A stretch of DNA of 64,000 nucleotides, taken from assembly GCA_015039365.1 (NCBI GenBank), contig WION01000223.1, forward strand, positions 1 through 64,000, read 5' to 3'. Positions 22,998 to 47,761 of the stretch are shown one piece after another. How positions within the stretch are numbered: the first letter of the stretch is position 1; each line of letters opens with the position of its first letter. Source of the DNA: Amanita rubescens. Lineage: Eukaryota; Basidiomycota; Agaricomycetes; Agaricales; Amanitaceae. Made by a program: the position numbers and the translations under genes. Under the pieces are notes generated by a model. The model did no database searches and was not told where the DNA came from. It was given only the letters and a program-made list of their open reading frames with translations.

Positions 22998-25900
22998 CTG
23001 CCTATAGAGTAATGCCACAAGATGTTCATCACCAAACTTCAAGACTTGGAGGACATCAGGAGTAATGTCAATCTGCAGCTTCTGGTGCACATAGCCTTTT
23101 TGCTTGTATTGATCCAAGGCTTCTGTAACTGATGGAAGAAATGGTTTATTGATCCAAAAGGATAGCTTGGCAATGATAATCATTGCTTGAAGGTTTAAGC
23201 ATAAATACTGTAAATGAAAAGGAATAATTTACAAACTAAGACTTGGCAATCAACAGCCTTGTTCCAACTGCATCAATTGTGTATGCCAAAAAAAAAGAAC
23301 AAAATACCCTGATTTTAAAATTGCTTTGTTTGTCTCCAAACAGGGCAAAAAGTTCATGCTAGTTACTATCAGATAGAGTAAAACATGCAATGTATCATCA
23401 TACTTACCCACTAGCATTGAAATCTATATGAAGATCAATACCTCATGAACTGGCACCACTCACCTGGGAATCAAGGAAAGTGATATAAGTGAGAAGAATA
23501 ATCACATAGGTAGAGGGGGTGAGCTAAAATTCAAAAATCTTACAATCTATTATCATGTAAAAGGAAGACATGGAAAAGATATGACAACATGCTCACTTTC
23601 TGATATACATAGAATGTAATATATATATCAAACATTTTTAAGTTGAGGGATGCTAAGAATGTAGGTCAGAAATGTACACTGTCACTCACATGCTTTTGAA
23701 AATTGAGGAAAAGATGTGATGAGACTGCCATTTAGAACAATATGCAATGTCACTCACAAGCTGTTGGTCATAAGAAAAGATGTGATGAAACTACCTGTCA
23801 CAAAAATGTGTGATGTCACTTACTTGCTGTTGGTCATAGCAAAGATGTACATTTCAACACAAAATTGAATGTGTAATACTTACTCGCTGTTGGTGATAGG
23901 AAAAGATGTGATGTGACTGTCTTTCACAAAAATGAGCAATATCACTCACTCCCTGTTGGCCATAGGAAAAGTGTGATGACTTTCACAAAAATGAGCAATA
24001 TCACTCACTCGCTGTTGGTCATATGGAAAGATGTGATGAGAAGGCCTTCACAAAAAGGTACAATATTGCTCACTCCCTGTTGGTCATACAAAAAGATGTG
24101 ATGACTGCTAGGAGACTCCCCTTCACAAAAATGTGCAATCTCACTCACAAGCTGTTTGTCATACATAGGAAAAGATGTGATAACTCAACTGCCTTACACA
24201 AAAATGTGCAATGCCACTCACAGCCTGTTGGTGATAGGGAAAGATGTGATAAGGCTGACTGTCTTTCACAGGATGTGCATTGAATTTCACTCACTCTCTG
24301 TTGGTCATAGGAAAGGATGTGGTGTTTGAACTGCCTGCCATCATGAAAATATGCAATGTCACTCACAACCTGTTGGTCATATGGAAAGATGTGATGAGAC
24401 TGCCATTCACAAAAATGTGCAACTGTCACTCACAGCCTGTTGTTCATGCAAAAGATGCAATGAGACCATTGCCTTTCAAAAAAATGTGCAATGTCACACA
24501 CCCGCTGTGAAAAGATGTGATGAGGCTGCCTTTGACAAAAATGCACATTCACTCACTCCCTGTTGATCAGAGGAAGAGATGTGATGAGGCTGTCTTTCAC
24601 AAAAATGTGCAATGTCACTCACTGCCTGTTGGTCATAGGAAAAGAAGTGACAAAACTGTTGCCTTTTACAACAATGCAGAATGTCATGATGACTCACCCC
24701 CTGTTGGTCAGAGGAAAAGATGTGATGAGACTGCCTTTCACAAAAGTTTGCAATGTCACTTACTTGCTGTTGGTCAGAGGAAAAGATGTGATGAGGCTAC
24801 CTTTCACAAAAATGTGCAAAGTGCTACCCACAAGCTATTAGTGATGGGAAAAGAAGTGATGAGACTGCCTTTCATAAACATGTGCAGTCTCACTCACAAA
24901 CTGTTGGTCATAGAAAAGGGTGTGATGAGACTGCTTTTCACAAAAACTTTGTGCAATGTCACTCACTGGCTGTTGGTCATAAGAAAACATGTGATGAGAT
25001 TGCCTTTCACAAAAATGTTCAATGTCACTCACTTGCTGTTGGTCATAGGAAAAGAAGTGATGAAACTACCTTTCACAAAAATGGCAATGTCACTCACAAG
25101 CTGTTGGTCATAGGAAAAGATGTGATGAGACTGCCTTCTGCCTTTCACAAAATGTGCAATGTCACTCACTCCCTGTTGGTCATAAGAAAACATGTGATGA
25201 GATTGCCTTTCACAAAAATGTTCAATGTCACTCACAAGCTGTTGATCATAGGAAAAGAAGTGATGAGACTGTCATTCACAAAATTGGGCATGTCACTCAC
25301 TCCCTGTTGGTCATAGGAAAAGATGTGATGAAACTGGCTGTCACAAAAATTGCAATGTCACTCACTTCCTGTTGGTCATAGAAAGATGTGTGGATGAGAC
25401 TGCCTTCTGCCTTTCACAAAATGTGCAATGTCACTCACTTGCTGTTGGTCATAGGAAAGGATGTGATGAGACTGCCTTCTGCCTTTCACAAAATGTGCAA
25501 TGTCACTCACTTGCTGTTGGTCATAGGAAAAGATGAGACTGCCTTCCATAAAATGTGAAATGTGAGGCACTGACTTGCTGTTGGTCATAAGATGTGATGA
25601 CACTGTCTTTGACAAAAATGTGCAATGTTACTCACAGCCTGTTGGTCATAAGAGAATTGCTATTACAAAAAGGGGGAACATCACCCACAAGCTGTTGGTC
25701 ATAGGAAAAGATGTGATGAGACTGCCTTTCACAAAAATGTGCAATGTTGCTCACTTCCTGTTGGTTGTAATAGTAAGACATGTGATGCAACTGGCTATTG
25801 CAAAATCAGACAATGTCACCCACAAGCTGTTAGTCATAGGAAAAGATGTGATGAGACTGCCTTTCACAAAATATGCAATGTCACTCACTGGCTGTTGGTC

Positions 25901-28900
25901 ATTAAAAGATGTGATGAGACTATCTGTCACAAAATTGGGCAATGTCACTCACTTCCTGTTGGTTATAGGAAAAGATGTGATCTGACTGGCTATCACAAAA
26001 AGATGCAACTTTGTCACCCACAACCTATTGGTCATAGAAAAAGATGTTATCTGACTGCCTTTCACAAAAATTTGCAATGTCACCCACAAGCTGTTGGTCA
26101 TGGGAAAAGAAGTGATGAGACTGCCTTTCACAAAAAAGGGTAATATCACTCACTCCCTGTTAGTCACAGATAAAGATGTCATGAAACTGCCTTTCAACAC
26201 AAATGTGTGCAATACAACTCACAGGCTGTTGGTCATAGGAAAAGAGATGATGGCCTTTCACAAAAATGTGTATTGACACTCACTGACTGTTAGTCATAAG
26301 AAAAGATGTGATGAGACTGTGCATGCCTTTCACAAACATAGGTAATGTCACTCACAAGCTGTTGATCACAAGAAAAGATGTGATGAGACCACCTTTCACA
26401 GAATTGTGCAATATCACTGACATACTGTTGGTTATAGGAAATGATGTGGTGAGACTGCCTTTCACAAAAATGTCCAATGGCACTCACTCCCTGTTGGTCA
26501 TAAGAATGGGTGTGATGAGATTGCCTGTAACAAAATGCGCCATGTCACTCACTCCCTGCCATTGGTCATAAGAAAACATTTGATGAGAGTCCCATTCACA
26601 ACAATATGCAATGTTACTCACTCCCTGTTCATCATAGGAAAAGATGTGATGAGAGTGCCTTTCACAAAAATGTGCAATGTCACTCACTCCCTGATTATCA
26701 TAGGAAAAGATGTGATGGGAAGACTGGCTTTCACAAAACTTTGTGATGTCACTCACATGCTGTTGGTCATAGGAAAAGATGTCACTGTGAGACTGTCTTT
26801 CACAAAAATGTGCAATGTCACCCACAACCTGTTGGTCATAGGAAACATGTGATAAAACTGCCTTTAACTAAAATGTGCAATGCCACTCACAAACTGTTGG
26901 TCATAGGGAAAGATGTGGTGAGACTGCTTTTCACAAAAATGTGTAATGTCCACCCACTCCCTGTCAGTCATAGGAAAAGATGTGATAGACTGCTTTAAAA
27001 ATGTGCAAGATCACTGACATTCTGTTGGTCATAGGAAAAGATGTGATAAGACTATATTTCACCAAAATGTGCAATGTTGCTCACAAACTGTTGGTCACAG
27101 GAAAGGATGTGATGAGACTGCCTTCCCTAAAAATCTGCAATGTCACTCACAAGCTGTTGGTCACAGGAAAAGATGTGATGAGACTGCCTCATTCAAAAAA
27201 AGTGTGCAACTTGAATATCACTCACTCTCTGTTGGTCATAGAAAATATGTAATGAAACTGCGTTCACAAAAATATGGAATGTAATTTACCAACTTTCAGT
27301 TGTAGGGAAAGGTGTGATGAGACTGCCTTTCAAAAAATGCAGTGTCACTCACAATCTGTGGGTCATAGGAAAAGGTGTGATGAGACTGCCTTTCACAAAA
27401 ATGTGTACTGTCACTCACAACCTGTTGTCACAGGACAAGATGTGATGAGACTACCTTTCACAAAAAGGTGCAATGTCTCTCACTTGCTGTTGGTTATAGG
27501 AAAAGAAGTGATGAGACTGCCTTTCACAAAAATGTGCAGTATCACTCACTCCAGCCTGTTGGTCATAGGTGTGATGAGAATTCCTTTCACAAAATGTGCA
27601 TTGTCACTCACTCTAGGCTGTTGGTTATAGGAAAAGATGTGATGAGACTGCCTTTCTCAAGAATGTGCAATGTCACTTGCTGTCTGCTGGTCATAAGAAA
27701 ATATGTGCTCAGACTACCTTCCACAAAAATGTGCAATGTCTCTCACTGGCTGTTTGTCATAAGAAAGGATGTGATGAGACTACCTTTCTCAAGAATGTGC
27801 AATGTCACTCACGCTCTGTAGGTCCTAAGAAAAGATGTGCTCAGACTACCTTCCACAAAAATGTGCAATGTCTCTCACTCGCTGTTTGTCATATGTAAGA
27901 AAGGATGTGATGAGACTACCTTTGATACAAATGTACAATGTCACTCACTTCCTGTTGGACATTAAGGCAAGATATGACGAGAATGCCTTTCACAACATGT
28001 GCAATCACTCACAAGCTGTTGGTTATAAGACTGCCTTTCACAAATATGTGCAATGTCACTCACTCCCTTTTGGTCATAGGAAAATATGTAATGAGACTGC
28101 CTTTTGATGTCACTCACCCCCTGTTGATCATAGGACAAGATGAGATGATACTGCATTCCACAAAAATGTCCAATGTCACTCACTCCCTGTTGGTCAGAGG
28201 AAAACATGTGTGAGATTGCCTTCACCCAAATCTTTAATTTCACTTACACGCTGTCAGTCATGGGGAAAAATCCATAAGACAGCTTTTGAGACAAATTGTG
28301 ATGTTACTCACAAACTATTGGCCACAAGCAAACAATTGATAAGGTCACCTTCTGAATGGCTCAACCAACATGACATGCTGCTAACCTCCTATATTTATAG
28401 GAAACCATGTGATGTCACTGCTTTTCACAAAGGCTTCAATATCACTTACAATCTGTAGAATACATAATGTGTCCAAATTGCCTTGCAGCAGAGTGGCCAA
28501 TATCACTCACTTCCTTTTGAAATAAAATTAGTACATTGCATCAGGAAACAGGAATCAATGCCACTGACTCTCTTTTGCCATAGCATTTCATATGATGGAT
28601 TAACACCTCACAAAAAGTATCACATACATTCTGTTGGTTTTGCAGTTCCATGTGAAGAGGCTTTGAAAAGGAGAAATATTTACTGTCTGTTGTTTTGGGA
28701 CAAGATGCAATCTTTATAAGCAGACATGAAGGAAGTGTCACTTACCTCCTGTTATTACACAAATGACATTTTGTGAGGCTCTCCTTTGGATAAAAGCATG
28801 TTACAGACTTTCTGTTGTTCATTGAATTATATCTGATGAACTGCACAAACATCATCAATGTTACTTACTTTCTTTAACTGGGTCAGATGTGGTGTGAGAT

Positions 28901-30709
28901 ACTGTTGTATTACTCACTCCCTGTCCATGAGAAACTGCATTGACAAGCCTGCTTGTAACCATAGATTTACTCACTTTCTGTTGGTCATATGATGCACCAT
29001 GGGATAATTTACCAAAAATCAAATTGAGTGATGTCACCCACTGCCTGTGGATCATGAGACAAGACCACTGATCACAAAAGGAAGCATTACTCACAAACTG
29101 TTGTCATGAGACAATATATCAGATCTATGTTAGTTCACCCTTACCCACTGTTATTGATATCATTAAATCCTGCCACCAAACATATGGTGACAACTAACCT
29201 GTGTTTCACTCAGTTGTTTATTGGCCACCTGAAGCATGACTAATCTTGTTTTAATGTGAAGGAATTTGAGTGTTACTCACCTCCTGATGAATGTTTTGCA
29301 AAGTATTACCATTCCATACGAAGGCCACCTACCTTCCTGTCCACCTATCACCATTTAATTTTCCTATGCTGATGAGCAGCTTGACAAAAATGCATACCCA
29401 GAAATGTGGAAATTTTGTAAATACTATGACAGTGACATCATTCCATGACAAAGTTGGTTGGAATAAGGCCTGGTACAGAACATGTCTGAACAATGTCAAT
29501 GTTAGTAAGTGACATTTTTGAGTGTGACCCTCACTGAAGTGCAGATTTAACACAAAGGTCCAGATTATTCATCTGTGTTGAAACAAACAGCTCATGCATG
29601 ATGTCATCATCTATTGCATCAGCAGTTTTCTGAGTTAATTCAGCACAATTCTTCTCTGGTAAATCCATGTCTATGAAACAACATCACTCCCATTTTCAGG
29701 AAGAAATCCTCATCATTCTCACCTTCCAATTGCACATATGCCCTAGGAGGGTATTTGGCATTCAAAAATTTAGGAAGATAAACTTTCTGAAAAGTGATAT
29801 CAGCATTTTCCCTGGCTGTCTCCCACTTATCTTCATCCTTTGCATCAGTCAAGTTGATAAATTCACTGGCTATTTGACCATCAAACTTAGTAAATATAAC
29901 CACCAAAGGAACTGTAAAGGAAATATTGACTAGTCAGTTCACTGTAGATTAGTACTTAAGTAGATTTTGGCCAATGGAAATGTGGTAAAACAATTCCTCC
30001 AACATGAACAAGATGAGATGTAAATTCATTAGGACCAACCTCTGCCTGTCCCTTTATTGAAAAATTCAAGTTCTGCCTGTAAAATGGGACGAGGGCTGTC
30101 CATGGGTATGCAGTACCTACAGGGATCTACATATGTCAACCAGTCATGTAAAGGAATAAATCAGATATGTACCAAATTGCATGCAACTGATTTTTCAGCT
30201 CAGTTTCTGCAGACTTCTTTTCAATGAAATTCCAAGCAACCTCCAATTCATCAGCAGAACCAGATTCAAATCCCTGAGAGTCATGGAAAATAAAGTTACT
30301 CTCAGGGTATGTAATTTGATGTTCAATATCATGTAGGCCTCTCTGTTATTAATGCATGTAAGTGGGCACATGATACATCCATACATTATCATTAAATGCA
30401 CCTCAATTGATGGCATCAGATGTGTTGCAGATGCTTCCAGTTCTTTGCCTACAGGAAACTCAATATGCAGAAGAAGCACAATGTTCAGCCTGACTTACCA
30501 TCCTCATCATATATTGTGGGCTTTGTTCCCTTTGCTACACCACAAATCTTCTCAAGGATGGTTGTCTTGCCTGCATTAGCCCTCCCTATGACAAGGATAC
30601 GAAAATGTGGGCATAGGTATTGTTCCCTGAGTATTTTAACATGTGTCTCATCTGTACCTGATGTATACCAGTCAGATAATGGGAATACCAAGACATCATA
30701 TTGGATCAC
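22998..30709 (-). CDS. GTPase gene running into a single-codon microexon array (proposed model)
   Basis: The 5' part is an intact GTPase. CPHFRILVIGRANAGKTTIL contains the G1 P-loop, FHDSQGFESGSADELE has G3 (DxxG), and VPLVVIFTKFDG has G4 (TKxD). Exons run from about 30709 to 29531 with normal introns and a clean frame. FVSTQMNNLDLCVKSALQ then splices (branch TACTAAC, AG at about 29505) to HVLYQALFQ ... TKFPHFW, and a donor GTATGC follows. Downstream, between 29340 and 23400, the strand carries about 85 units of the form AG, three bases, GTRAGT. A normal exon (22998-23128, EALDQYKQKGYVHQKLQ... ending before GTAACTGACATTG) lies beyond. The GTPase resembles uncharacterised P-loop G-domain proteins expanded in agaricomycetes. 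The start codon is uncertain (GTG at 30709, or ATG a few bases on in another frame), and the 3' end is unknown. The 29195 and 29333 units do not fit simply (the latter gives 4 nt). Confidence 0.5.
23400..29340 (-). repeat. ~66-bp tandem array: intron-like units bracketing one codon
   Basis: The core (23650-28250) holds about 70 tandem units of roughly 65-66 bp; degenerate units extend to 29340 and to 23400. Read on the minus strand, a unit is: GTGAGTGACATTG, a T-rich and A-rich middle, CATCTTTTCC, TATGACCAACAG, then three variable bases before the next GTGAGT. The intron-like part is about 63 nt, the usual intron size in this window. Triplets by position include CTT 23758, GGA 23950, GTT 24367, TTT 24898, CCA 24967, GAA 25366, TCA 26284, TAT 26422, AAT 27019, AGC 27822, CGT 28248, AAA 28975 and TGG 29145. 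Two slots are 6 bases (27551 GCTGGA, 27612 CCTAGA). No slot is TAA, TAG or TGA. Confidence 0.95.
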
Positions 30710-46332: not shown

Positions 46333-47761
46333 TTAGTCACCTCCGAATCCGCTATACTCTCCATCGCTGTAGTCATCGTAGTGTCTATACCCCGTATATG
46401 ACGCACTGTCGCTATATTCATGTTCAGACCCGGCACCGTTATGCCAGCTATCGTCCGAATCATAGTCATCGTTACGATAGGAAGGGTCCCCATAGCCTCC
46501 GAGTCCAGCTGGATAACGACCGGGAAAGCTAAAATTCCAATCCCCGTACCTCCTCTCTCCAGATCGATAGTCATTGCGGTCACCAAAAGAATTGGGATTG
46601 TAACCGTAATCCGGGGAGTCAGAACGATAATTCTCGCCGGGATAACCTACTCCGGGCCAATCATCATCGACATCCCGAGCAGAAGGAAAGTGCGCCATCC
46701 GCGGTGAATAGTACGAGCTGCGCGGGATCGGATAAGCCTCCCTTTGGTACCTCGTAGCACCCCGGGCCTCCCTTGCACCACCAAATTCATCCGCCGAAGT
46801 CCAGTCCCTCCTATTATTATGAGTCGCCGTTGGATACCGATGTGCGTAGCAAGTTGTACAATTGCACAAGATGGGGACCCCCCTATCCCGGTCAAAAGTG
46901 TTGGCGGTAGCATAAGCAGTCTGACGTATCCTCATATCAACATACGGGTCTTCGCTGCGATAAAAGCGATATTCTCGCGAGAACGAATGATGATGACGGG
47001 GCCGAGTCACCGGACTGGCGCTACCAGAAGAAGAACCAGGCCATTGCGTTCGGGCCCATTGATATCGATGATCTCTGGAATAATCACCGCCGAATCCGCC
47101 ATATCGGCCATGGCTGGGAGAGGGTAACCCAAATGTAAACGGCATTGCATTCATTGCGGGAGTAGGCGGCCCGTGTCGATATAACCCAAGGTCTCTAGGC
47201 GTCGCGGGGCCGATAGCGTGTGGATGGGACTGATTGGAGGGGTAGGAAAAATCTCGCAGCCTTTGTTGTGAATCAATGGATTCCCAGGGTCCTCCTATAC
47301 CTTGCCTTAGAGGAGATGCGCCAGAATCTCCTAACTCGCTGACGGTGTGTACACGTCTGCCGGGGCTTTCGTGGATGCTGCGGCTGCGAGCAGGTGATGG
47401 TGGAAATCGTGGGTCGCGCGTGCCATTCAAGTCACCTATACCTTGCCATGCGCCAGAATCTCCTAACTCGCTGACGGTGTGTACACGTCTGCCGGGGCTT
47501 TCGTGGATGCTGCGGCTGCGAGCAGGTGATGGCGGAAATCGTGTGTCGCGCGTCCCATTCAAGTCGAGACCGTCAAAAGCAGAAGTTAAAGATAGAGGCT
47601 CCTGTTCATGGTCGCGATGTGGTCTAAGCGAAGAAGACCTGTGGAAGTCTGTGGGTCTAGAGAATTTTTTATGAAAATGAGTGACGTGCACAAAAATAGA
47701 AATTGTATACGTAGTACCTGTTCGCTTGATCGTAGTCGGATCGATAGTACGGTGCTGACAT
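46333..47761 (-). CDS. Disordered Arg/Ser/Gly/Tyr-rich protein with internal duplication
   Basis: Two exons: 47718-47761 (MSAPYYRSDYDQANR) and 46333-47656. The ~457-residue product is low in hydrophobics and rich in R, S, G, Y and D. A ~45-residue segment is duplicated in tandem, NGTRDTRFPPSPARSRSIHE next to NGTRDPRFPPSPARSRSIHE (DNA about 47299-47438 and 47441-47580). It has a CNCTTC-like cysteine patch and a C-terminal acidic YDDYSDGEYSGFGGD. I do not recognise the family. The composition resembles RNA-granule or SR-type scaffold proteins, which is only suggestive. Confidence 0.75.

Follow-up and report, generated by a model that had tools for sequence, protein, structure and literature searches.

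How is a GTPase gene read when a tandem repeat of some 6 kb stands between its coding exons? The question is raised by a gene on the minus strand of the window, the stretch of 64,000 nucleotides (nt) analysed here (positions 1 to 64,000 of contig WION01000223.1 of Amanita rubescens, assembly GCA_015039365.1). An earlier reading made from the sequence alone (the original prediction) had proposed that the repeat is a pile of introns with one-codon exons between them, which builds a C-terminal segment of the protein one residue per unit. We conclude, with a probability of about 0.9, that this GTPase family gene carries an internal array of ~62-nt introns split by one-codon, phase-0 exons, each adding one residue, and that the codons of the array core outpace its introns. 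The phenomenon is genuine: relatives splice the array, its translation keeps the frame under strong constraint, and it extends far beyond the window.

The pattern AG-N(k)-GTRAG matched the minus strand between 22.8 and 31.2 kb 68 times at k=3 and 0-4 times at each other k from 0 to 15, confirming that the ~66-bp units place exactly three bases between AG and GTRAGT. The core (23.4-28.3 kb) held 58 of the k=3 matches compared to a mean of 0.63 and a maximum of 4 in 300 dinucleotide shuffles, and Tandem Repeats Finder reported a period of 66 with 65 copies at 23706-28027. As predicted for 28.3-29.3 kb, the pattern persisted where the introns are unlike the core unit, with 10 matches in this degenerate part (28.3-29.39 kb) vs. 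a dinucleotide-shuffle mean of 0.18 and a maximum of 3. The final read of the minus strand from 29283 to 23408 contained 87 three-nt exons, close to the 85 or so first counted, including further ones with weaker donors at 28811 (gtctgt), 28571 (gtcagt) and 28388 (gttagc) that the original prediction did not list. The two length exceptions it placed at 27612 and 27551 are 6-nt exons, CCTAGA (27617-27612) and GCTGGA (27555-27550). The three-nt exons encode 17 amino acids with no stop codon (3.3 expected from position frequencies), as had been claimed, using 26 distinct triplets, not the roughly 30 first counted. The array introns had a median length of 63 nt (range 46-90) in a splice parse that prefers 3-nt exons. 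Over 69 units (28314-23690), column diversity was 0.65/0.74/0.57 in the triplet and averaged 0.21 in the 63 intron columns, none of which reached 0.5; this comparison of the triplet with other columns had been proposed as a check and came out in favor of the microexons. Plus-strand open frames over the array (up to 200 amino acids) were set aside, since units of varying length interrupt them and the transcripts follow the minus strand.

The same exon length and frame were found across the genome, surveyed in a 75.7-Mb assembly of 786 contigs (G000) in which the window array is C139. A 32-mer of the unit, with up to 3 mismatches, occurred 2377 times and its reversed control 0 times. Exact units of the form CAACAG-N(k)-GTGAGTGACAT, counted for k=0-12 with this one consensus flank, numbered 1426 at k=3 and 39 at all other lengths together (1 at k=0, 3 at k=1, 13 at k=2, 6 at k=4, 12 at k=6 and 4 at k=9; none at k=5, 7, 8 or 10-12). 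Multiples of three, that is, small symmetrical exons, thus made up 1443 of the 1465 exact units, and 16 of the 22 remaining units lie in one gene, C749. The C749 array (G000:C749:2070-4150), with these 16 non-triplet exons (1, 2 and 4 nt) and a further exon of 0 nt, may reflect a decaying gene or assembly indels. Among the 204 exact units whose triplet begins with T, TRA occurred once (TGA in C537); about 128 would be expected because 769 of the 1222 triplets with other first bases are VRA and the same proportion was applied. This count covers TAA and TGA, and TAG was found in 0 of 862 triplets from a search with a window-trained profile. That search, over 38 merged stretches (239.6 kb), yielded 862 exons of 3 nt, 12 of 6, 5 of 9, 3 of 2 and 3 of 4 nt, as well as 18 longer spans of 23-27 nt (13 of them, at 23 nt, read as an upstream AG plus a 3-nt exon); 126 acceptors had no matching donor. 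No stops were present among the 862 triplets, where position frequencies predict 49.

A dynamic-programming splice parse that favored no length or frame and allowed exons of up to 60 nt gave exactly 3 nt for 785 of 910 exons in the 13 of 15 genes that it parsed, which include the near-identical copies C139 and C120. It misread the array ends, and found 35-85 three-nt exons per gene. A second parse, which prefers 3-nt exons and multiples of three, served to read residues and played no part in the length statistic. It misread stretches of C8, C13, C254 and C46, among others, and returned no parse for C79, and the stops in its output are in part such misreadings (e.g., CTAG-TGA-GTGACA beside CTA units). 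Both the TKFD exon of the GTPase and the C-terminal exon had at least 150 matches in the genome, many of them in near-identical contig pairs. A same-strand C-terminal exon lay 1.8-17.2 kb downstream (median 4.1 kb) of 117 of the 150 TKFD matches listed, the other 33 being unpaired, and each of 30 GTPase-exon loci (L009-L038) held 8-13 AG-NNN-GTRAG sites on the gene strand. One locus with 56-bp units (L041, C8:74000-83999) has codons that spell the coiled-coil-like QLLQKLQKLQKYLEREQYLERYKEYQRERDRRGYQQQRRYEEQLERLQRDL, with a repeated three-unit motif CTT-CAA-AAA.

Synonymous codon choice in the microexons points to faithful splicing, as judged by comparing the 862 microexon triplets with 7983 codons from 151 long-exon matches of the same family. 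NGA:NGT was 178:7 in microexons vs. 59:136 in long exons, NAA:NAG was 262:11 vs. 804:932 and NAT:NAC was 88:3 vs. 990:381, while threonine and cysteine together accounted for 1 of 862 codons compared to 648 of 7983. Third positions were A (0.579) or T (0.371) far more than C (0.015) or G (0.035), and synonymous variety was low (e.g., GAT 34, GAC 2). The bias would reflect selection for clean splicing, because NGT adds a GT inside the exon and NAG adds a second acceptor.

The transcript evidence consisted of protein sequences of contigs from relatives, their status as complementary DNA (cDNA) being deduced from contig size. The database entries, from JGI contigs of 1.4-1.5 kb, cover the G domain, from which the introns are missing, and continue into residues of the array. 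P0019, P0041 and P0045 join the G domain, array residues and C-terminus on contigs of 1486-1506 nt, a size that could not hold an unspliced gene. These contigs must be spliced because the corresponding genes would be several kb long. Residues were read from genomic loci with the second parser, which ran without transcripts, although it favors 3-nt exons and was written after the transcripts had been seen. Locus L056 read TSSNEIK.W.F.A.D.A.K.K.Q.A.D.L.E.R.E.Y against TSSNEIKWFAEAKKQADGEREY of P0029 (13 of 15 single-codon residues agree), and locus L058 read KHNEVD, a 7-nt misread at W and F.E.S.A.D.N.A.A.A.K.E.R.Q against KHNEIDWFESADDAAGKERE of P0019 (10 of 13 agree). P0002 agreed with the consensus of 14 genomic genes, WFEQGKKETDREIEYDGG, at 16 of 18 positions, and 0 of 20000 shuffles were as good; agreement over the same 18 positions was 12 for P0023, 8 for P0029, 6 for P0019, 5 for P0045 and 4 for P0041, the last four apparently belonging to other subfamilies. 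P0029 ends in EVCDIAQFSECQSH, which resembles core introns in translation (DVSDIAHFAERQSH in C254, E 0.033) and looks like a retained array intron directly behind spliced microexons. Since intron-less contigs carry the genomic residue strings and P0029 breaks off in an array intron left unspliced, we conclude that the microexons are spliced in. Array residues are present in mature mRNA of the relatives, which supports the proposed stack of introns with one-codon, phase-0 exons between them. Array-spanning transcripts were sought in two more protein searches, which returned the query and one relative in one case and the query alone in the other.

These data bear on the simplest alternative, that the array forms a single 6-kb intron, or a satellite within one, in which the triplets are untranslated. 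The tandem repeat does sit between coding exons of compatible phase, and A. rubescens gene models end at or shortly after the array start. Stop avoidance, lengths in multiples of three, codon choice and relatives' transcripts that carry the residues all speak against a single intron, as do the six introns between the GTPase exons of the window gene, which measure 49-128 nt. One large intron is ruled out for the relatives by P0019, P0029, P0041 and P0045, and is extremely improbable overall. Five of six public A. rubescens models examined (P0001, P0004, P0007, P0017, P0070, and P0077) end before the array or within about 40 residues of its start, P0077 passes over it, and none of the six annotates an array.

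The original prediction held that skipping of subsets of the exons could give many protein variants. The transcripts also bear on whether diversity arises mainly by combinatorial skipping of single-codon exons, as reported for truffle NACHT-ANK genes and schistosome micro-exon genes. Each 3-nt exon is phase 0 on both sides, the passages on truffle offer a precedent, and the intron retained in P0029 indicates that splicing is imperfect. Yet no exon was skipped in the 15, 13, and 18 comparable positions of P0029, P0019, and P0002, all in the first part of the array, and codon choice looks selected for fidelity. Skipping as the main source of diversity seems rather unlikely.

Within the core, intron DNA stays alike while the codons differ strongly. 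Intron diversity in C79 (66 units) was 0.017 and triplet diversity 0.69/0.68/0.59; the values for C13 (40 units) were 0.004 and 0.10/0.67/0.22. A single identical 62-nt intron is present 39 times in C79 with nine codons between the copies, and pairs of identical introns were accompanied by different triplets in 627 of 757 cases in C79, 432 of 598 in C13, 235 of 276 in C254 and 71 of 88 in C8. C13 and C254 are 97.5% identical over 5.4 kb and have near-identical introns in common, but their codon strings differ, although the triplet difference of 30% is exaggerated by gained units for which no alignment is possible. Different codons flanked by identical introns would also result if one intron had spread, in the manner of introners, into the codon boundaries of an older coding segment, so that the introns were homogenised and the codons are old. 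The first part of the array, with conserved residues and one intron per codon, is as such a spread would have it. Phase-0 insertion exactly after every codon is hard to obtain, however, the differing codon strings of C13 and C254 do not fit old codons, and unit length differs between genes (56 bp in C8, 65 bp in C79), so we regard an introner-like origin as very improbable.

Several observations weigh against the reading of single-codon exons that outpace their introns. The contrast between columns was smaller in C46, C61, C3 and C33 (introns 0.10-0.21, triplets 0.47-0.77). The non-repeat first part of the array was compared in 16 near-identical gene pairs, which are 90% or more identical before the array and differ by no more than 12% in their introns (pairs not independent). 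Thirteen of them had together changed at 4 of 583 triplet sites vs. 124 of 13349 intron sites, with 0-1 changed triplet sites in each pair; the other three pairs, all with L029 (C13), had 3-4 triplet changes per 42-45 sites. The near-identical C139 and C120 differed at 8 of 261 triplet sites vs. 56 of 5765 intron sites, and three of the eight lie in one codon and may be an alignment shift. The C13 array, which includes exons of 2 and 4 nt, may no longer be intact. The residue-reading parser favors 3-nt exons, and the transcripts compared come from relatives, not from the window gene or strain, three of them having a best genomic exon that is 76-90% identical. Avoidance of NCA (CAG acceptor) had been predicted but is not seen when microexons are set against long exons (35:30 vs. 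730:635), and avoidance of NTA was weak (119:16 vs. 476:114, p 0.046). Finally, the data do not separate selection from mutation as the cause of the fast codons.

A local mutator that targets the triplet, with selection not the main force in codon change, would account for many different codons flanked by identical 62-nt introns and perhaps for C13, which varies mostly at the middle base. It accords poorly with third positions that are almost only A or T and with the low synonymous variety, as selection on residue and splicing would give, and with first-part codons that are no faster than introns in the 13 pairs together; we consider it quite improbable. A bolder proposal is that a dedicated process, either a triplet-targeted mutator or extreme selection with intron homogenisation, renews single codons between introns kept identical and so provides nucleus-specific hypervariable GTPase repertoires, which we hold to be unlikely. 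Fast core codons most likely reflect selection for new residues together with repeat turnover that keeps the introns alike.

The array sits inside the GTPase gene, between exons that end in FPHFW and three C-terminal exons. The most 5' GTPase exon read (30499-30657, minus strand as for all exons of this gene) contains the P-loop GRANAGKTT and was identified from an open frame, splice sites and weak Pfam Arf/MMR_HSR1 matches below cut-off. It is followed by exons at 30402-30448, 30173-30342 (HDSQG), 30040-30116, 29723-29911 (the TKFD motif) and 29535-29670, and by the last long exon before the array (29398-29485), which ends in FPHFW in phase 0 by paralogue comparison. The units at 29195 and 29333, originally set aside as not fitting, are longer exons in the same frame according to the splice parse: a 12-nt exon VDRK (29333-29344), similar in most paralogues read, and a 30-nt exon VANKQLSETQ (29199-29228; compare TNEQLSETK in P0002). 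Between them lies a 3-nt exon for E (29281-29283; AG-NNN-GTRAG pattern and splice parse). The first part proper (28312-29147) comprises 15 single-codon exons in the splice parse, W F A K G K K E T N R E I E F, with residues conserved across paralogues. The core tandem array (23690-28250) was delimited by repeat finder, pattern and parse and holds 68 single-codon exons in addition to the two 6-nt exons. Three-nt exons for K (23597-23599; pattern and splice parse), I (23544-23546; pattern and aligned paralogues) and W (23408-23410; pattern, splice parse and paralogues) complete the array.

The array had been taken for a C-terminal segment downstream of the GTPase; it is internal, because conserved C-terminal exons were found at the far end of the arrays. 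In the window, these are a 51-nt exon, HELFALFGDKQSNFKIR, in phase 0/0 (23308-23358), corresponding to PELFSVFGEHSTFFSAT of P0041; a 25-nt exon encoding AVDCQVLV plus 1 nt (23233-23257), read by hand and corresponding to ATACQVLA of P0041; and the C-terminal exon (MIIIAKLSFWINKPFLPSVTEALDQ..., 22998-23185), supported by paralogues and with a provisional 3' boundary. Aligned paralogues and transcripts served to place, by hand, the I exon, the 25-nt exon and the C-terminal boundary. The parser's choices of a 60-nt exon at the I site, which other genes do not share, and of a 3-nt exon at 23235, which breaks the frame, were rejected, and a C-terminal exon acceptor at 23207 was dropped once nine paralogues had been compared. 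Between the I and W/C microexons, at 23465-23460 on the minus strand, AG/GTRAGT is a candidate for an exon of zero nucleotides, or recursive splice site. A branch-site-like cttgat or variant lies just 5' of the candidate site in 10 of 15 genes (the window gene and nine others), and the transcript residues REI-L-PELF of P0041 fit 0 nt there. Elsewhere in the window, a 132-bp tandem repeat (47316-47565, 1.9 copies, 97% matches) lies within a long minus-strand open frame.

Pfam searches with the protein up to E 0.1 gave only weak matches below cut-off, to GTPase and other P-loop families and to one domain of unknown function, with no NACHT or ankyrin, and NCBIfam gave a weak small_GTP match. No sequence relative was found in the PDB up to E 0.01. 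An AlphaFold2 model of P0041, built with 13 sequences, had a mean predicted local distance difference test score (pLDDT) of 67, with 79-94 in the C-terminal helices (blocks of ten residues) and less than 50 in residues 295-358, which hold most of the array-coded part. The best Foldseek matches of this model in the PDB were GM4951, BDLP and IIGP1/Irga6 at template modelling (TM) scores of ~0.30, so that a likeness to immune GTPases of the IRG type or to bacterial dynamin is only a lead. We infer that the product is a recognition-type GTPase with a hypervariable internal segment of ~40-95 residues that is probably unstructured. The distant homologues P0103 and P0086 have a much shorter stretch between the FP..W motif and the C-terminal helices, and the long array segment may therefore be an Amanita expansion.

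Intron definition presumably underlies the recognition of these short introns, which would be excised individually. Each unit would add one residue, as relatives' transcripts support for the first 13-18 exons and as we infer for the rest. Core units would multiply and be lost as near-identical repeats, by which single residues would be gained or lost in frame. With 1426 exact units for one flank in one genome, and more with mismatches, single-codon exons are used here at large scale. A run of 77 consecutive 3-nt exons in one parsed gene is a natural stress test of intron definition for splicing biology, and the genes form a large hypervariable family for fungal recognition biology. Because most examined A. 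rubescens models end near the array start, the array-coded part of the proteome is largely missing from databases.

Systems with parts of this architecture are known. In the minisatellite that encodes the zinc fingers of PRDM9, near-identical repeats carry hypervariable codons and are not split by introns. The original prediction knew of no described equivalent to the array, which does not hold for codon-sized exons as such. Passages in four papers describe the NACHT-ANK (nank) genes of Tuber melanosporum as having "dozens of 3 bp mini-exons" (PMC9815663), "3-bp long microexons" (PMC10197012), "tens of codon-sized microexons" (PMC3689799) and "multiple codon-sized microexons" (PMC4986451), the primary source cited for them being Iotti et al. 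2012. As in the truffle genes so described, dozens of codon-sized exons (87 in the window) occur in an expanded fungal NTP-binding family with a proposed diversification of the recognition segment. The truffle genes encode an ascomycete NOD-like receptor (NLR) with ankyrin repeats, a C-terminal recognition domain and reported alternative splicing, whereas the Amanita array lies in an internal segment of a basidiomycete GTPase that is not a NACHT-ANK protein in the Pfam search up to E 0.1, has tandem units with identical introns, and its exons were seen to be included. No basidiomycete microexon array was seen among the papers listed in the literature searches, as judged by titles and abstract openings.

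The process proposed for the core is likened to that of the high-internal-conservation repeats of fungal NLRs (Podospora HNWD, ANK, and TPR; PMC4986451), which, in the passages on them, also combine near-identical repeats, few hypervariable codons, changes in repeat number and an expanded family. At the DNA level, C79 and C13 (intron diversity of 1.7% and 0.4%) have repeats more than 85% alike with few hypervariable codons, a similarity that the window array, at 0.21, does not reach. There the whole repeat is protein; in the Amanita unit all but one codon is spliced out, and no translated repeat forms a WD, ANK, or TPR fold. The micro-exon genes of Schistosoma (PMC4350168) resemble the array in a coding region made mostly of very small symmetrical exons, but they belong to other protein families of an animal parasite, and tandem single-codon units are not described in the passages. 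The constitutive single-nucleotide exon of Arabidopsis APC11, for which intron definition combined with recursive splicing was proposed (PMC4674806), is similarly small, and is one isolated exon where Amanita has an array. What is new compared to these systems is the occurrence of differing codons between identical introns, together with the basidiomycete host, the GTPase, the internal segment and the tandem units. A second fungal phylum and another protein family suggest that both lineages found the same trick: with the repeat placed in the intron, its turnover at the DNA level lengthens or shortens the protein by one residue and leaves the frame intact.

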